DNA from: Polaribacter dokdonensis
Lineage (GTDB): Bacteria > Bacteroidota > Bacteroidia > Flavobacteriales > Flavobacteriaceae
DNA length: 64,000 nt
NCBI RefSeq assembly: GCF_024362345.1
Contig: NZ_CP101505.1
Span: 764,001-828,000 of the forward strand
Direction: 5' to 3'
Position numbers and translations under genes: made by a program
Notes under the pieces: generated by a model
Told to the model about the DNA's origin: nothing
Database searches by the model: none
The model's input: the letters and a program-made list of their open reading frames with translations, nothing else
Shown: in pieces, positions 52,904 through 60,149 of the stretch
Layout of the letters: each line of letters begins with the position of its first letter
Position numbering within the stretch: position 1 is the first letter of the stretch

Positions 52904-54427
52904 TTATAAATGACTTTTTAAAATCTCTACAAACTGAATAGCTGTAAATGGCTTAGGTATAACACCAGCAAAACCCAATCCTTTATAAATTTCGATATCT
53001 TCTTTCGAGTTGTTAGCTGTTAATGCTAGAAAAGGGATTTCTGAATTGGATTGTTTCATATCCTCTTTTCGCTTAATTAGCTCATCTCCTTTTAAGTTAG
53101 GCATATTAATATCTAAAAGAACAATATCAAAAGTGCTTTTATTCATTGCTGAAATAGCCTCTATCCCATCTTTAACCAAGGTATGCTCTGCTTCTTCTTT
53201 ATCAAGAATATGAGATACAATACTTAAGTTTAAGAAGTTATCATCTGCAACTAAAACCTTTTTTCCTTTTAAAGAAACTGCAGAATTATCTCCACTTTCA
53301 CTTACAGCTCTAGAATCTGCATCTGCATCAATTTTAAAAGGAATATCAATAGTAATGGTAGTTCCGTAGTTTTTTAAACTATCCACTTTTATTCTACCTT
53401 CCATAACATCTACCAATCTTTTTACAATTGATAAGCCTAAACCTACTCCATTATGCATTCTATTATCACTCAACCTATTTTGTTGATATTCATCAAATAT
53501 CTTTGAAGCCTGTTCAGCAGTCATTCCTCTACCTGTATCTTTTACTTTAAAAGAAATTAAAGCTTTATCAGTATCAGAAAATAATAGTTCAACATTAGTG
53601 GTTACAGTTCCTCTTGGTGTAAACTTTATAGAGTTATTGATTAAGTTGGTCAAAATTTGAATTAAACGAACATCATCACCTAAAACTTCATCTGGCAAAT
53701 TATCAGATACGTTAAACTCTAATTCGATATCTAAATCTTTATGACTACCTTGATAATTATTTTTAATTTGATCTATAATTGTTGAGATATTCATAGGTTC
53801 GTTAGCCAAAACTAATTTACCTGCTTCTACTCTAGACAAATCTAAAATATCATCTACAATCACTTTTAAATTACGACCAGAAATAGTTAAATATTTTAAG
53901 TATTCTTGAGCCATTAAAGAAGTTTCTTCTTTATTTATAAGCTCTGTATACCCTAAAATTACATTTAACGGATTACGAACCTCATGACTCATCATTGCTA
54001 AAAAACGAGATTTCTCAGCATTTGCTTTATCTGCTATTTCACGTAATCTAATAAGTTCTTTGTTTTTTTCTGCTATTTCTCTTTTCAAGAAATACATATC
54101 ATTTCTACTTTGGTTTAAATGATTTACAGATTTGTAAACATTAGATCTATTATGTATTATGATTGATATATTTTCTGTGGATTTAAAAAGTTCTAAATCT
54201 ACATTAAACTCTTTACCTTCAGAAACAATTAGCATGCTTTCTATGGTAAATAATTCAGAATCGGGTAAAGATTGTAAGGTAACTTCTAAAAAAGGACAAG
54301 TTTCAAAGATTGATTGGCCAAGTTTAAAATCTTCATTTAAAAACTTACCTTCAATAACCTTTATAATATAACCTTTAAAATCGGTTATTAAATCAATAAA
54401 TATATCGTCTATTTTAGAAGCTATCAA
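52904..54427 (-). CDS. Cytosolic hybrid histidine kinase with receiver domain
   Basis: 507 residues with no transmembrane helix. An N-terminal sensor-like domain (about 1-100) matches nothing I recognise; a coiled-coil (about 105-140) links to HisKA with His148 (MMSHEVRNPLN). The HATPase_c has N-box NLINNSIKF (about 261-269), G1 DTGRGM (297) and G2 GVGLGLSIV (327-335). The receiver (about 388-507) has acidic Asp395/396, phospho-acceptor Asp439 (LLDINMP), Thr470 and Lys492. All catalytic residues are present, so it can autophosphorylate and pass phosphate to its own receiver. It starts at TTG 54427, five bases after the GTPase stop. It has no DNA-binding output, so the relay probably continues elsewhere. 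Confidence 0.9.
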   Translation of the reverse strand: MIASKIDDIFIDLITDFKGYIIKVIEGKFLNEDFKLGQSIFETCPFLEVTLQSLPDSELFTIESMLIVSEGKEFNVDLELFKSTENISIIIHNRSNVYKSVNHLNQSRNDMYFLKREIAEKNKELIRLREIADKANAEKSRFLAMMSHEVRNPLNVILGYTELINKEETSLMAQEYLKYLTISGRNLKVIVDDILDLSRVEAGKLVLANEPMNISTIIDQIKNNYQGSHKDLDIELEFNVSDNLPDEVLGDDVRLIQILTNLINNSIKFTPRGTVTTNVELLFSDTDKALISFKVKDTGRGMTAEQASKIFDEYQQNRLSDNRMHNGVGLGLSIVKRLVDVMEGRIKVDSLKNYGTTITIDIPFKIDADADSRAVSESGDNSAVSLKGKKVLVADDNFLNLSIVSHILDKEEAEHTLVKDGIEAISAMNKSTFDIVLLDINMPNLKGDELIKRKEDMKQSNSEIPFLALTANNSKEDIEIYKGLGFAGVIPKPFTAIQFVEILKSHL

Positions 54428-54432
54428 TATAT

Positions 54433-54918
54433 TTATTTTAAGGATTGAACCACTATCTCTCTAAAGGCTTCTTCTACACTATCGTTATCTTTTGCACTAG
54501 TGATTGCATTTATAGGCAAAGGACATGTAGCTCTAATTTCTTCAATTCTTTCTTCTGATAATAAATCTTTCTTATTACCAACCAATAAAATAGTATCTAA
54601 ACCAGATATATCTTTTAGTTCTTGAATTTTAGCATCTACGTTAATATAAGTTTCTTCTCTATTTAAATCGAATACATACATGGCTGCACTTGCGCCTAAG
54701 AAATAAGCTTTCGGAATTTTTTCGTCATCACTTGTACCAGCAACATCCCAAATTAAAAGTTTCATTTCTTCTTCTTCTACATTTAGAATTTTGGTACTAA
54801 CTCTTACTCCAATTGTACTAATATAGTCTTCAGAAAATTCGTTTAGCACGAACCTTCTAATCAATGAAGTCTTTCCTACTCCAAAATTTCCAACCAATAA
54901 AACTTTTTTTGCAATCAT
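54433..54918 (-). CDS. Ras-like small GTPase
   Basis: 161 residues with all five G motifs: P-loop GNFGVGKT (10-17), switch I Thr35 (YISTIG), G3 WDVAG (57-61), G4 NKKD (115-118) and G5 SAK (141-143). It resembles Rab/Arf-type bacterial GTPases more than EngA or Era types. Unusual: the residue after DxxG, where Ras has Gln61, is Thr62 (GTSDDE), so intrinsic hydrolysis should be slow and may need a partner. There is no lipid-modification motif at the C-terminus. Gene order places it between the roadblock-like protein and the kinase. It probably acts as a switch in the same pathway. Confidence 0.92.
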   Translation of the reverse strand: MIAKKVLLVGNFGVGKTSLIRRFVLNEFSEDYISTIGVRVSTKILNVEEEEMKLLIWDVAGTSDDEKIPKAYFLGASAAMYVFDLNREETYINVDAKIQELKDISGLDTILLVGNKKDLLSEERIEEIRATCPLPINAITSAKDNDSVEEAFREIVVQSLK

Positions 54919-54933
54919 TTATAAGTTTCTATG

Positions 54934-55749
54934 CTAATCTTCGATTTTTATAAGTGTGGTTTCAATTAGTTTGTTTAATCTAAGTTCATCTTTTAAAAAA
55001 CTTCGATCTCTTAATATTTTCTCTGCTAAAGTATTAATATTCTCAGACAAATCTTCCTTAAATTCTCTATTTATTACTCCAGATGTTGCAGTTGCTATAT
55101 AAATTGAGTTAAAATTGACCATTGAGAGCTGAAAAGTTTCGAATTTAATATCTTCTAAATCCTGGCCCTCTTTAGAGAAAGCGTCTTCAACAAAAGATTT
55201 TATTGCTGTAAGCATACCTGAGACCATATCTTTATCTGCAATATTTCCTCTAGAATAACTACCTATTAATAATCCAGAATTTTCTTCGATTACAAAAACT
55301 TCTTCTATAGTAGGCTCAAAAACCTCTTGAAAAACATCTTCTGAATCTGTTCTTTCTCCCTTAAATAAACGTTTTATAATATGAGTTAATGAAAACTTTT
55401 TGTTTATAGTCTCATTAATATTATCTGATAACTTTGTAATTTCTGCGACAATAAACTTCTTAACCAATTTACCCATAATAGGATAAAGAGCTTCTACAAC
55501 TTCGTCTTGAGATTCTCTTATTTGAACTTTTATAGACTCTGTAACTTGGTCTCCAAAGTGAAGAGGAAAGTTATCTTTAAGATCATTAATCTGTTCATCT
55601 ACAACAGGTTTAACCTCATTTTTAATTTGATCTTTTTCTAAGTATTTTACTCGTAAAGATTCAAACTCTTGCCTATCATCTGTTAATAAAAGTTCTTTAA
55701 GTAATTCAAAACGATTTTCTGCTTTATGGTCTACAGTCGTTTCTTCCAT
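54934..55749 (-). CDS. Roadblock/longin-like protein with helical N-terminus
   Basis: 271 residues. The N-terminal 145 are charged and predicted helical (EFESLRVKYLEKDQIKNEVK and onward). The C-terminal part, about 150-270, has alternating beta-helix-beta sequence (EEVFVIEENSGLLIGSYSR, MVSGMLTAIKSFVEDAF, FNSIYIATATSG) that resembles a roadblock/LC7 or longin module. Such modules regulate MglA-type small GTPases as GAPs or GEFs. The fold call is my reading of the pattern, not a search. Its start lies directly against the coiled-coil gene stop (no gap), and it precedes the GTPase gene by 15 bases. No catalytic motif is visible. Confidence 0.6.
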   Translation of the reverse strand: MEETTVDHKAENRFELLKELLLTDDRQEFESLRVKYLEKDQIKNEVKPVVDEQINDLKDNFPLHFGDQVTESIKVQIRESQDEVVEALYPIMGKLVKKFIVAEITKLSDNINETINKKFSLTHIIKRLFKGERTDSEDVFQEVFEPTIEEVFVIEENSGLLIGSYSRGNIADKDMVSGMLTAIKSFVEDAFSKEGQDLEDIKFETFQLSMVNFNSIYIATATSGVINREFKEDLSENINTLAEKILRDRSFLKDELRLNKLIETTLIKIED

Positions 55750-56103
55750 TTATTCTTGCAACATCAATGCAATTTTCTCTAAGGCTTTACCTAATTTTCT
55801 TCTATCTGCTTTTTCATCATCTATATCAGCTAATTTCTTATCTAAATCATCATTTAAATCTTGAAATTTATGATCTACCAAACTTTCCAAATCAGCAAGT
55901 TTACTTTCAATACTTGCAACAGAATCAGCTAAACTTTTTTGAGAAGCCTCCTCTAAGGATTTAATTCGATTGTAAACATCTTCAAATTCAGAATTATATT
56001 GTTGAATATTCTCTCCAAAAATAAGATCTCTTACTGCAGCTATTCTAGTATCAATCTGCTGATTAGCAACTGGTTCTTGATTTTTTTCAGTTGTTTTTGC
56101 CAT
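55750..56103 (-). CDS. Coiled-coil protein of the GTPase operon
   Basis: 117 residues, mostly alpha-helical. The N-terminal part has DTRIAAVRDLIFGENIQQYN, a short hydrophobic patch (VRDLIFG) that could bind a partner. Residues about 45-117 show heptad-like spacing of Leu/Ile with many charged residues (SIESKLADLESLVDHKFQDL). It has no membrane segment or enzyme motif. It is the first gene of the operon and its stop abuts the start of the roadblock-like gene. A structural or adaptor role in the GTPase complex is likely, but this is inference. Confidence 0.75.
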   Translation of the reverse strand: MAKTTEKNQEPVANQQIDTRIAAVRDLIFGENIQQYNSEFEDVYNRIKSLEEASQKSLADSVASIESKLADLESLVDHKFQDLNDDLDKKLADIDDEKADRRKLGKALEKIALMLQE

Positions 56104-56212: not shown

Positions 56213-56995
56213 CTACACTGTTATTTTTAAGCCATCAAAGGCAAGAAAAACGTTTTCAGGTAAATTTTTAGAGACCTCCTCATGAAAACCTAACTTATGG
56301 CTAATATGTGTAAAATAAGTTGTTTTTGGTTTTATTTCTGCTACAAAATCAAGCGCTTCCTGTAGGTTAAAATGGGTTGGATGTTCTTCTATTCGTAAAG
56401 CATTTACAACCAAAACATCTAAATCTTGTAGTTTCTTCCTTTCTTCTTCTTCCACAAATTTTACATCTGTTAAGTAGGCAAAATCTTCAATTCTATATGA
56501 GGTTACAGGTAATTTACCATGCATAACTTCTATTGGAGTTATGGTTACACCTTCTATAAAAAAATCGTCTTTATCAACAATATTTGGCTGTACACTTGGT
56601 GCTCCTGGATACCTGTTTTCTTTGCTAAAAATATATTGAAAACGCTGCTCTAAACTCTGTAAAGTTCTTGCATTTAAATAAATGGGCATCTCCCCTATTT
56701 TGTAGCAATAAGGCCTTAAATCATCTAAACCAGCTGTATGATCTGCATGTTCGTGTGTAAATAAAACTCCGTTTACCAATTGTACATCTTCACGAATCAT
56801 TTGTTGCCTAAAATCTGGCCCACAATCAATTACATAAGACACATCATCCCAAGAAATTAAAACAGAAGAACGCAAGCGTTTATCTTTTATATCATCAGAT
56901 AAACAAACAGGATCTTTACTAGCAATCATAGGTATACCTTGTGAAGTACCTGTACCAAGAAAAGTTATTTCTAGTTGTTTTTTAGCTTTTTTCAT
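56213..56995 (-). CDS. Metallo-beta-lactamase fold hydrolase (PhnP-like)
   Basis: About 260 residues. The metal motif THEHADHTAGLDDL (HxHxDH) and the later HGKLP (metal His) and THISHKLGF (His) give a complete dinuclear site. It starts ITFLGTGTSQGIPM, typical of PhnP/tRNase Z-type MBL enzymes, which cleave phosphodiesters. A cyclic phosphodiesterase role is plausible; substrate unknown. I choose ATG 56995; TTG 57004 is an alternative. It lies upstream of the GTPase operon on the same strand, 109 bases away. Confidence 0.85.
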   Translation of the reverse strand: MKKAKKQLEITFLGTGTSQGIPMIASKDPVCLSDDIKDKRLRSSVLISWDDVSYVIDCGPDFRQQMIREDVQLVNGVLFTHEHADHTAGLDDLRPYCYKIGEMPIYLNARTLQSLEQRFQYIFSKENRYPGAPSVQPNIVDKDDFFIEGVTITPIEVMHGKLPVTSYRIEDFAYLTDVKFVEEEERKKLQDLDVLVVNALRIEEHPTHFNLQEALDFVAEIKPKTTYFTHISHKLGFHEEVSKNLPENVFLAFDGLKITV

Positions 56996-57018
56996 TGCTA
57001 ACAAAAATAAGATAAAAA

Positions 57019-58571: not shown

Positions 58572-59120
58572 TTGACAGAAGAACTTACATTAATAACAGA
58601 ATTACAAAATTCTAAGACCAAGGAAATTGCGTTTCGTAAGTTAATTACAACTTATAAAGAGCGTTTGTATTGGCATATTCGAAAAATTGTAGTTAGTCAT
58701 GATGATGCTGATGATGTTCTACAAAATACTTTTATAAAGATTTATAAAAATATAGATCGTTTTAATAGTGACAGTAAACTATACTCTTGGATGTATAGAA
58801 TTGCAACCAATGAATCTATCACTTTTATAAACAAAAGAGCTAAAGAACGAAATGTAGACATTACAGAATATCATCAATCTGTAGCCAGTACTTTACAAAG
58901 TGATGTTTTATTTGATGGTGATGAAATTCAGTTAATTCTGCAGCAAGCAATAGCCACTTTACCAGAAAAACAAAGACTAGTTTTTAACATGAAGTATTTT
59001 GATGAAATGAAATATGATGAAATTTCTCAAATCTTAGAAACTTCTGTTGGAGCGTTAAAATCGTCTTACTTTCATGCTGTAAAAAAGATAGAAAATTATA
59101 TTAAAACATCTACAAATTAA
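58572..59120 (+). CDS. ECF-type RNA polymerase sigma factor
   Basis: 182 residues with sigma-70 region 2 (about 24-90: RLYWHIRKIVVSHDDADDVLQNTFIKIYKNI, then SWMYRIATNESITFINKR) and region 4 (about 117-175: LPEKQRLVFNMKYFDEMKYDEISQIL, SVGALKSSYFHAVKKIE). Region 3 is missing, as in ECF sigmas. The start is TTG at 58572; no ATG fits. The next two genes encode a likely anti-sigma factor and a Spy-like sensor, so the three form one regulatory unit, with envelope stress as the likely signal. Confidence 0.92.
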   Translation: MTEELTLITELQNSKTKEIAFRKLITTYKERLYWHIRKIVVSHDDADDVLQNTFIKIYKNIDRFNSDSKLYSWMYRIATNESITFINKRAKERNVDITEYHQSVASTLQSDVLFDGDEIQLILQQAIATLPEKQRLVFNMKYFDEMKYDEISQILETSVGALKSSYFHAVKKIENYIKTSTN

Positions 59121-59151
59121 ACCTTTAGCAAAATTTAGTGTCTAAATAATA

Positions 59152-59694
59152 ATGGAAAACGAAATAAGAAATAGCGAAAATTTTATTAATAGTAAATTAA
59201 GGAATAAAAAACCTTTTTCTACTCCTGATAATTATTTTGATTCTTTAGAAGATAGGTTCTCTGCAAAATTAGCAGAAGATAAATTCTCTAAAGAAAATCC
59301 TTTTAAGGTTTCAGATACTTATTTTGAAAATTTAGAGGATGATATTTTTGCAAAAATTGTATCAGAAAAGAAAGAAGTAAAAGTTATTTCTTTAAAAGAT
59401 AGATTATTTAAAGTAATTCCTTTTGCAGCTGCAGCTTCTGTAGTTCTATTTTTAGGATTAAATACTTTTAATTTCAGTACAGAAAACACAGCTAGTTTAG
59501 ATAGCCTTTCTGATGATGATATAGAGTATTGGTTAGATTCTAATACATTACATACTTCAGACATTGCCTCTGTTTTAGAAGAAGACATTTTAGATGAAAA
59601 TGCTTTTTATTTTGCAGATATTGAAGATGAAAGTATAGAAGATTACATTAACACAGATGATAATAGTTATTTATTAAACGAATTAAAAGAATAA
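59152..59694 (+). CDS. Probable anti-sigma factor (single-pass membrane protein)
   Basis: 180 residues, very acidic. The N-terminal cytosolic part (about 1-80) contains two similar units, PFSTPDNYFDSLEDRF (about 21-36) and PFKVSDTYFENLED (about 46-59), followed by a basic stretch and one transmembrane helix (about 89-104, VIPFAAAASVVLFLGL). The C-terminal part (about 110-180) is acidic and probably periplasmic. Position right after an ECF sigma and before a Spy-like protein is typical for anti-sigma factors. The repeated N-terminal unit may be the sigma-binding part. No zinc-binding motif is visible. Confidence 0.65.
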   Translation: MENEIRNSENFINSKLRNKKPFSTPDNYFDSLEDRFSAKLAEDKFSKENPFKVSDTYFENLEDDIFAKIVSEKKEVKVISLKDRLFKVIPFAAAASVVLFLGLNTFNFSTENTASLDSLSDDDIEYWLDSNTLHTSDIASVLEEDILDENAFYFADIEDESIEDYINTDDNSYLLNELKE

Positions 59695-59696
59695 AG

Positions 59697-60149
59697 ATGA
59701 AGAAATTTTTAACCTTAATGTGCCTAAGCATATTTTTTAGTTGGTCTTTGTCTGCGCAAAAACCTAGTGAAAGCAGAGAAAAAATAAAGGCTTTAAAAAT
59801 AGCATATTTAACAGAGCAATTAAATTTAACGCCACAAGAAGCAGAGAAATTTTGGCCCATATACAATGCACATGATGAAGAGCATAATTCTTTGCGTTAT
59901 AAAACTAGATTAGCTTACAAAAAAGCAATTGAGCAAAATAAGAGTGTAGATAATATTTCTGAAAAAGAAGCTCAGAAAATAATACTACTTAAACTAGAAA
60001 CAGATAAAAAAATATACGAATCTCAAAGCAAATTCATTGCTAAGATTAAGAAAGTTTTAAGCTATAAAAAGATTATGAAGTTACAAGTTGCTGAAATGGA
60101 GTTTGGCCGAAAATTAATGAGGAAATACAAACGTAAACGTAAAGAATAA
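59697..60149 (+). CDS. Spy/CpxP-like periplasmic protein
   Basis: 150 residues with a signal peptide (about 1-20, ending LSAQ). The mature part is helical and carries LTEQLNLTPQEAEKFWPIYNAHDEEH, close to the LTxxQ-type motif of Spy/CpxP/CnrX-like sensors. The C-terminus is strongly basic (RKYKRKRKE). It starts 2 bases after the anti-sigma stop. In related operons such proteins sense misfolded protein or metal and control the sigma factor. A strong terminator follows. Confidence 0.8.
   Translation: MKKFLTLMCLSIFFSWSLSAQKPSESREKIKALKIAYLTEQLNLTPQEAEKFWPIYNAHDEEHNSLRYKTRLAYKKAIEQNKSVDNISEKEAQKIILLKLETDKKIYESQSKFIAKIKKVLSYKKIMKLQVAEMEFGRKLMRKYKRKRKE

Follow-up and report, generated by a model that had tools for sequence, protein, structure and literature searches.

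Group 1 Rup GTPases were described in 2014 by Wuichet and Sogaard-Andersen (PMC4316618) from Bacteroidetes, Chloroflexi, Cyanobacteria, and gamma-Proteobacteria. According to the passages of that survey devoted to this group, the rup gene is found with a coiled-coil gene, a gene for an “Unc” domain protein, in which the domain is often followed by a membrane helix and an OmpA segment, and a signaling output. The output protein carries an invariant glutamine in its N-terminal region and is typically a c-di-GMP enzyme or a histidine kinase. The GTPases themselves lack the G3 glutamine, and it was speculated that a GAP supplies this residue in trans. The same passages state that none of 71 small Rup proteins was coupled to MglB, and that by 2014 no Rup had been characterized and the regulator was unknown; MglA is described there as lacking the G3 aspartate, and an MglA protein is posited as the output of conservons.

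The window analyzed here is a whole 64,000-nucleotide stretch of a Polaribacter dokdonensis genome, which has 3.09 Mb in a single contig and one copy of UNC. It contains four co-directional genes on the minus strand, from position 56103 to 52904, packed with gaps of 0, 15, and 5 bases (Table 1), in agreement with the coordinates and layout given in a preliminary description of this DNA. Based on the size of the GTPase, its missing glutamine, its neighbors, and the glutamine of the output, the operon appears to be a Group 1 Rup system as described in 2014. The system has thus been known since then; the earlier finding is real, and its interpretation is partly supported. Kyte-Doolittle 19-residue maxima range from 0.65 to 1.22 across the four proteins, i.e., none has a strongly hydrophobic stretch of this length. 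Nearby, a hydrolase-like gene (metallo-beta-lactamase type by eye; 56213-57004) precedes the operon by 109 bases on the same strand, and positions 58572-60149 hold a sigma-70-like factor followed by two co-directional genes, by eye a possible anti-sigma factor and a small secreted protein. The preliminary description raised a possible link to gliding or polarity; the genome does encode GldJ, which in itself says nothing on the Rup operon.

Table 1. Features of the Rup operon, in window coordinates.
Feature	Position	Strand	Basis
CC, 117-aa coiled-coil protein, first gene	55750..56103	-	relatives share N-terminal motif
UNC, 271-aa protein, “Unc” component of Group 1 Rup system, short form	54934..55749	-	without transmembrane and OmpA segments
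Predicted roadblock/longin-fold domain, UNC residues 145-271	54937..55317	-	AlphaFold2, Foldseek, VIA-align
Most conserved helix of UNC domain, residues 172-189 (D.DMVSGMLTAI.SF..D)	55183..55236	-	alignments
Rup, 161-aa Rab-like small GTPase, G1-G5 motifs intact	54433..54918	-	Pfam Ras 1.2e-33, PDB relatives, motifs
G3 motif WDVAG, then Thr where Ras has the catalytic Gln	54736..54750	-	0/39 homologues with Gln there
Effector, 507-aa soluble hybrid histidine kinase, TTG start	52904..54427	-	Pfam; no hydrophobic stretch
Predicted PAS domain, kinase residues 1-93; missed by Pfam	54149..54427	-	
Gln106 of kinase, conserved Gln in helix after PAS domain	54110..54112	-	39/39 outputs
HisKA dimerization / phospho-acceptor domain	53819..54013	-	Pfam PF00512
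HATPase_c catalytic domain	53333..53680	-	Pfam PF02518
Receiver domain of hybrid kinase	52919..53257	-	Pfam PF00072

Besides its strong Pfam Ras match, the GTPase falls under the 240-aa limit for Group 1 Rup, and it is the only small Ras-type GTPase of the genome, the other four Ras-profile matches lying in open frames of 303-937 aa. The best 60 of its 900 PDB relatives are all of Rab/Ypt type (Rab11B, E 3.2e-27). The residue after DxxG is Thr in 26 of 39 homologues, followed by Glu (7), Ser (3), and single cases of Val, Asp, and Gly, while the G3 aspartate (Asp58) is invariant in 13 of 13 GTPase sequences. On these sequence grounds the GTPase is classed as Rab-like and not of the MglA family.

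Gene order is strongly conserved among close relatives. All 25 loci found through UNC carry the four genes in the same order (in one, the fourth gene runs off the contig end), invariably with CC directly abutting UNC (gap 0) and 3-7 bases between GTPase and kinase; Polaribacter accounts for 18 of the 25 named relatives in this search. Within the family, CC, UNC, GTPase, and PAS kinase follow each other on a single strand in 39 of 40 loci, ten of which include an extra GTPase or PAS gene. The four genes are therefore regular neighbors wherever they occur, beyond what chance would give, and not the rare ones that would have refuted the preliminary description. The 40 family regions were taken from 53 UNC-positive genomes (the other 13 being the window's own, one fetched separately, G134, and eleven left out without a rule), and one locus is common to both sets, L063 of the 40 and L023 of the 25 being from the same genome.

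UNC and the GTPase also co-occur at the level of genomes. In the family sample, UNC was detected in 53 of 249 genomes and the GTPase in 51, all within the 53; the two UNC-positive genomes without a GTPase are G453, whose UNC is broken by stops, and G563, with a marginal match. The latter contributes the 40th family locus (L082, 4794-6060), consisting of CC and a diverged UNC without the SGMLTAI helix, with no GTPase found in the genome, and represents a natural test of the function of this helix. Of 395 sampled Bacteroidota genomes, 14 have UNC, and a search for the GTPase at E <= 1e-17 picked out exactly these 14; one of them carries both genes in duplicate, and in three, all of one genus, the GTPase sits on a different contig from UNC. 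The GTPase profile had 13 rows, six of which derive from five of these 14 genomes other than the window's own; the eight genomes outside the profile gave GTPase scores of 1.4e-42 to 9.6e-59. Fisher p-values take no account of common descent. The distribution is patchy, with UNC missing from three other own-genus genomes of this sample.

Farther away the arrangement loosens: among the 14 distant loci, 11 include the GTPase and 13 include CC, the GTPase does not lie beside UNC in three, and in several the CC-UNC pair and the GTPase-output pair are oriented divergently. Among 7998 candidates scored, 5197 were reported as UNC-domain homologues, and the sources of the 120 listed include Acidobacteriota, Pyrinomonadaceae, Vicinamibacterales, and Blastocatellia. 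A plasmid search returned four records. The same order is found on a Nostoc plasmid (coiled coil, OmpA-type protein, GTPase, hybrid kinase) and on a Mesorhizobium plasmid (hypothetical protein with the coiled-coil motif, OmpA protein, “Rab family GTPase”, cyclase), and an N-terminal CC motif of the type [IV]R[DS][IL][IL][FL]G is common to the relatives in Bacteroidota and on the rhizobial and Nostoc plasmids. Homology between this motif and the N-terminus of UNC (LR.LLLG vs IRDILFG) looked good by eye but was not supported: the CC-motif profile gave UNC at most 6.7 bits against 5.3 for shuffled sequence. The 1021-aa OmpA-type UNC protein of the Mesorhizobium plasmid (L056, 5743-8808) repeats a segment with the motif GLRDPLA, which occurs four times at a spacing of 136 aa.

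The output of the window operon had been described as a cytosolic hybrid kinase. Its three Pfam domains and the lack of a hydrophobic stretch (19-residue maximum 1.16) bear this out, and a predicted PAS domain at its N-terminus had been missed. The conserved N-terminal glutamine, for whose region we predict a PAS fold, was found in every output of a 39-sequence alignment (four effectors trimmed at the N-terminus beforehand) and, once stand-alone PAS proteins were added, in 87 of 88 rows or 86 of 87 distinct sequences, the sole exception being one stand-alone PAS protein. The PAS-Gln unit is joined to outputs of unrelated kinds, sigma-54 activators and a cyclase among them, and also occurs alone. 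Hence, the earlier statement that there is no DNA-binding output applies to the window operon but not to two scanned relatives, in which the output is a sigma-54 activator.

Several loci are more elaborate. In L065, L074, L078, and L080, the order CC-UNC-G1-PAS-G2-kinase places a 198-200-aa PAS-Gln protein between two GTPases, which suggests a two-step cascade. In L071, L083, L084, and L088, the kinase is succeeded by another full-length PAS-Gln kinase (501-511 aa) of the same orientation, and one GTPase gene may serve two kinases. A response regulator with receiver, sigma-54, and HTH domains adjoins the Rup kinase in L047 (12704-14182), and by eye similar neighbors occur in L048, L050, and L053.

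On balance, we think it probable, if well short of assured, that the operon encodes a soluble, OmpA-less Group 1 Rup system that works as follows. UNC, through its predicted roadblock/longin domain and probably together with CC, would form a platform that binds Rup and sets its nucleotide state as a GEF, a GAP, or both. Rup-GTP would in turn bind the N-terminal part of the kinase, namely its PAS domain and the helix after it, and this binding may alter autophosphorylation and the passage of phosphate to the receiver, with control presumably running from GTPase to kinase. The conserved glutamine of the helix could enter the Rup active site and replace the missing catalytic residue, a supply in trans of the kind already proposed in 2014 (PMC4316618, in its passages on Group 1). 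Because the effector's glutamine would complete the active site, effector binding would also end the signal. A GTPase-gated phosphorelay, as the preliminary description put it, is the best-supported reading of the operon. The operon itself, the family assignments, the predicted folds, the missing and the conserved glutamine, co-occurrence, and gene order are computed results, to which we add by inference complex formation, GEF/GAP activity, the direction of kinase control, and catalysis. Speaking against this reading are the looser arrangement of distant loci, the stand-alone PAS protein without the glutamine, and, for UNC, the model confidence and the sequence comparisons described below.

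PAS domains ahead of kinases often bind small ligands, and a PAS domain before HisKA is a common sensor layout; the window PAS may therefore be an independent sensor. The order of events could then be the reverse, with PAS as an ordinary ligand sensor, UNC and CC as scaffolds, and the kinase upstream of Rup as output. This order has been suggested for the actinobacterial conservon, in which no response regulator is encoded (PMC4316618, in its treatment of conservons). The window kinase, however, has its own receiver, and together with the varied fusions and stand-alone forms of the PAS-Gln unit this is more easily reconciled with a single GTPase feeding several kinds of output than with multiple inputs, so that we regard a kinase upstream of the GTPase as unlikely.

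Neither UNC nor CC matched a family above cut-off in Pfam or NCBIfam. With AlphaFold2, Foldseek, and VIA-align, residues 145-271 of UNC are predicted with moderate confidence to adopt a roadblock/longin fold, and the roadblock-like character that the preliminary description gave to this protein is to that extent upheld. The model (mean pLDDT 62.6, pTM 0.44) shows the strand-strand-helix-three strands-helix core of the superfold, and its best structural matches include the longin-domain Rab GEFs TRAPP, Mon1-Ccz1, and Fuzzy-Inturned, with the C-terminal two-helix end matching too. Local confidence is low in part of the domain, pLDDT being below 50 at residues 169-204, i.e., where the most conserved helix sits.

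In the sequence comparisons made, no link of UNC to roadblock or longin proteins emerged. A UNC profile returned two chance matches among PDB sequences (E 0.63 and 0.70), and no Robl_LC7 or longin family was present among the 25 families listed of the 70 matched by 74 scanned UNC members. In profile-profile comparisons, based on 47 non-redundant UNC sequences (from 196 of 200 with the anchor motif) and on a candidate roadblock frame in 11 of 18 loci with three dropped (GTPase-like, spurious, and near-duplicate), the UNC domain scored 12.0-20.8 against roadblock proteins, no better than controls (11.9-23.0), the top control score being a chance match to the GTPase. Together with the low local confidence, this leaves some room for the view that the match reflects a common alpha/beta arrangement and that UNC has another fold and role, e.g., as a coiled-coil tether; we judge it quite improbable.

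UNC relatives come in two sizes. In the own family, 52 of 53 UNC open frames are 268-308 aa long (in one of these the match contains an internal stop), the 53rd being the broken one, and the short form is also found in one genome from another family of the own class. In the 11 sampled genomes outside this class, the open frames that hold UNC relatives span 598-738 aa, and the 12 long proteins of those loci each have a hydrophobic stretch (maxima 1.9-2.6). OmpA was detected in all ten long proteins scanned, from nine of these loci and Nostoc (one 0.2 bits below cut-off), and the window UNC is homologous to these OmpA-type Unc proteins. The absence of a membrane sensor, as first noted for the window, thus characterizes the short form found in the own class and does not extend to the long form. 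The Flavobacteriaceae system is soluble, without the hydrophobic and OmpA parts of its long relatives, and its fully cytosolic layout seems to have arisen when the envelope part was lost.

Once UNC is named as a roadblock/longin partner, as predicted here, and a short kinase fragment of PAS plus helix with one conserved glutamine is added, both the regulator of Rup and what Rup itself regulates become a three-protein test-tube question. A broader joint reading, which we offer as possible yet rather doubtful, is that bacteria keep a complete Rab-type module consisting of Rup, a longin-type platform as its own GEF/GAP, and a plug-in PAS-helix-Gln effector on kinases, cyclases, and transcription activators, in which the effector supplies the glutamine and times its own signal. 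If true, the pairing of a Rab-like GTPase with a longin-type partner was not invented by eukaryotes or Asgard archaea. An action of UNC on Rup would also call for a second look at two views, as expressed in the relevant parts of the papers concerned: that roadblock/longin families are archaeal in origin (PMC10933270), and that it was in eukaryotes that longin domains were put to the service of Rab GTPases (PMC3521125).

Compared to Group 1 Rup systems as portrayed in PMC4316618, where Bacteroidetes are named, the window operon shares a Ras/Rab-like GTPase without the catalytic glutamine, a coiled coil, Unc, and an output with an N-terminal glutamine, and differs in that its Unc lacks the membrane and OmpA segments. 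To this picture our analysis adds a roadblock/longin fold predicted with moderate confidence for Unc and a predicted PAS fold for the Gln region, as well as cyclase and sigma-54 outputs, stand-alone PAS-Gln proteins, and tandem GTPases. Some of these additions may be among the unshown cases of PMC4316618, given its wording “often” for the OmpA form and “typically” for the outputs. Among the open-access papers examined, PMC4316618 was the only one on Rup systems, and none was found that assigns Unc a roadblock or longin fold or that describes the PAS identity of the Gln region or stand-alone PAS-Gln proteins, which does not prove that no such paper has been published.

Conservons (CvnABCD), in the portions of PMC4316618 and PMC13343842 concerned with them, likewise unite in a single operon a histidine kinase, a roadblock protein, a small GTPase, and one further protein; however, they are actinobacterial, CvnB and CvnD are homologues of MglB and MglA by sequence, and CvnA is membrane-spanning. 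The window operon departs from a conservon, with its membrane histidine kinase and Robl_LC7 protein, in having no Robl_LC7 match and no hydrophobic stretch in the kinase. MglA/MglB of Myxococcus xanthus also pairs a small GTPase with a partner of roadblock-type fold, predicted here for UNC, and the preliminary description had likened the operon to it; the window operon differs in including a soluble hybrid kinase. The likeness does not extend to an actual MglA/MglB pair, and a true polarity switch of this kind that gained a kinase is highly implausible: Robl_LC7 (PF03259) has no match in UNC or elsewhere in the window genome, the GTPase appears Rab-like and keeps the G3 aspartate that MglA lacks in the account of PMC4316618, and Robl_LC7 occurs in 31 of 395 sampled genomes and in none of the 14 with Rup, a non-overlap that is weak by itself (about one expected by chance) and consistent with separate systems without being proof. 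Finally, the longin-domain Rab GEFs, which are eukaryotic and resemble UNC in its predicted structure, have in common with the window system both the structural match and a Rab-like GTPase as neighbor.
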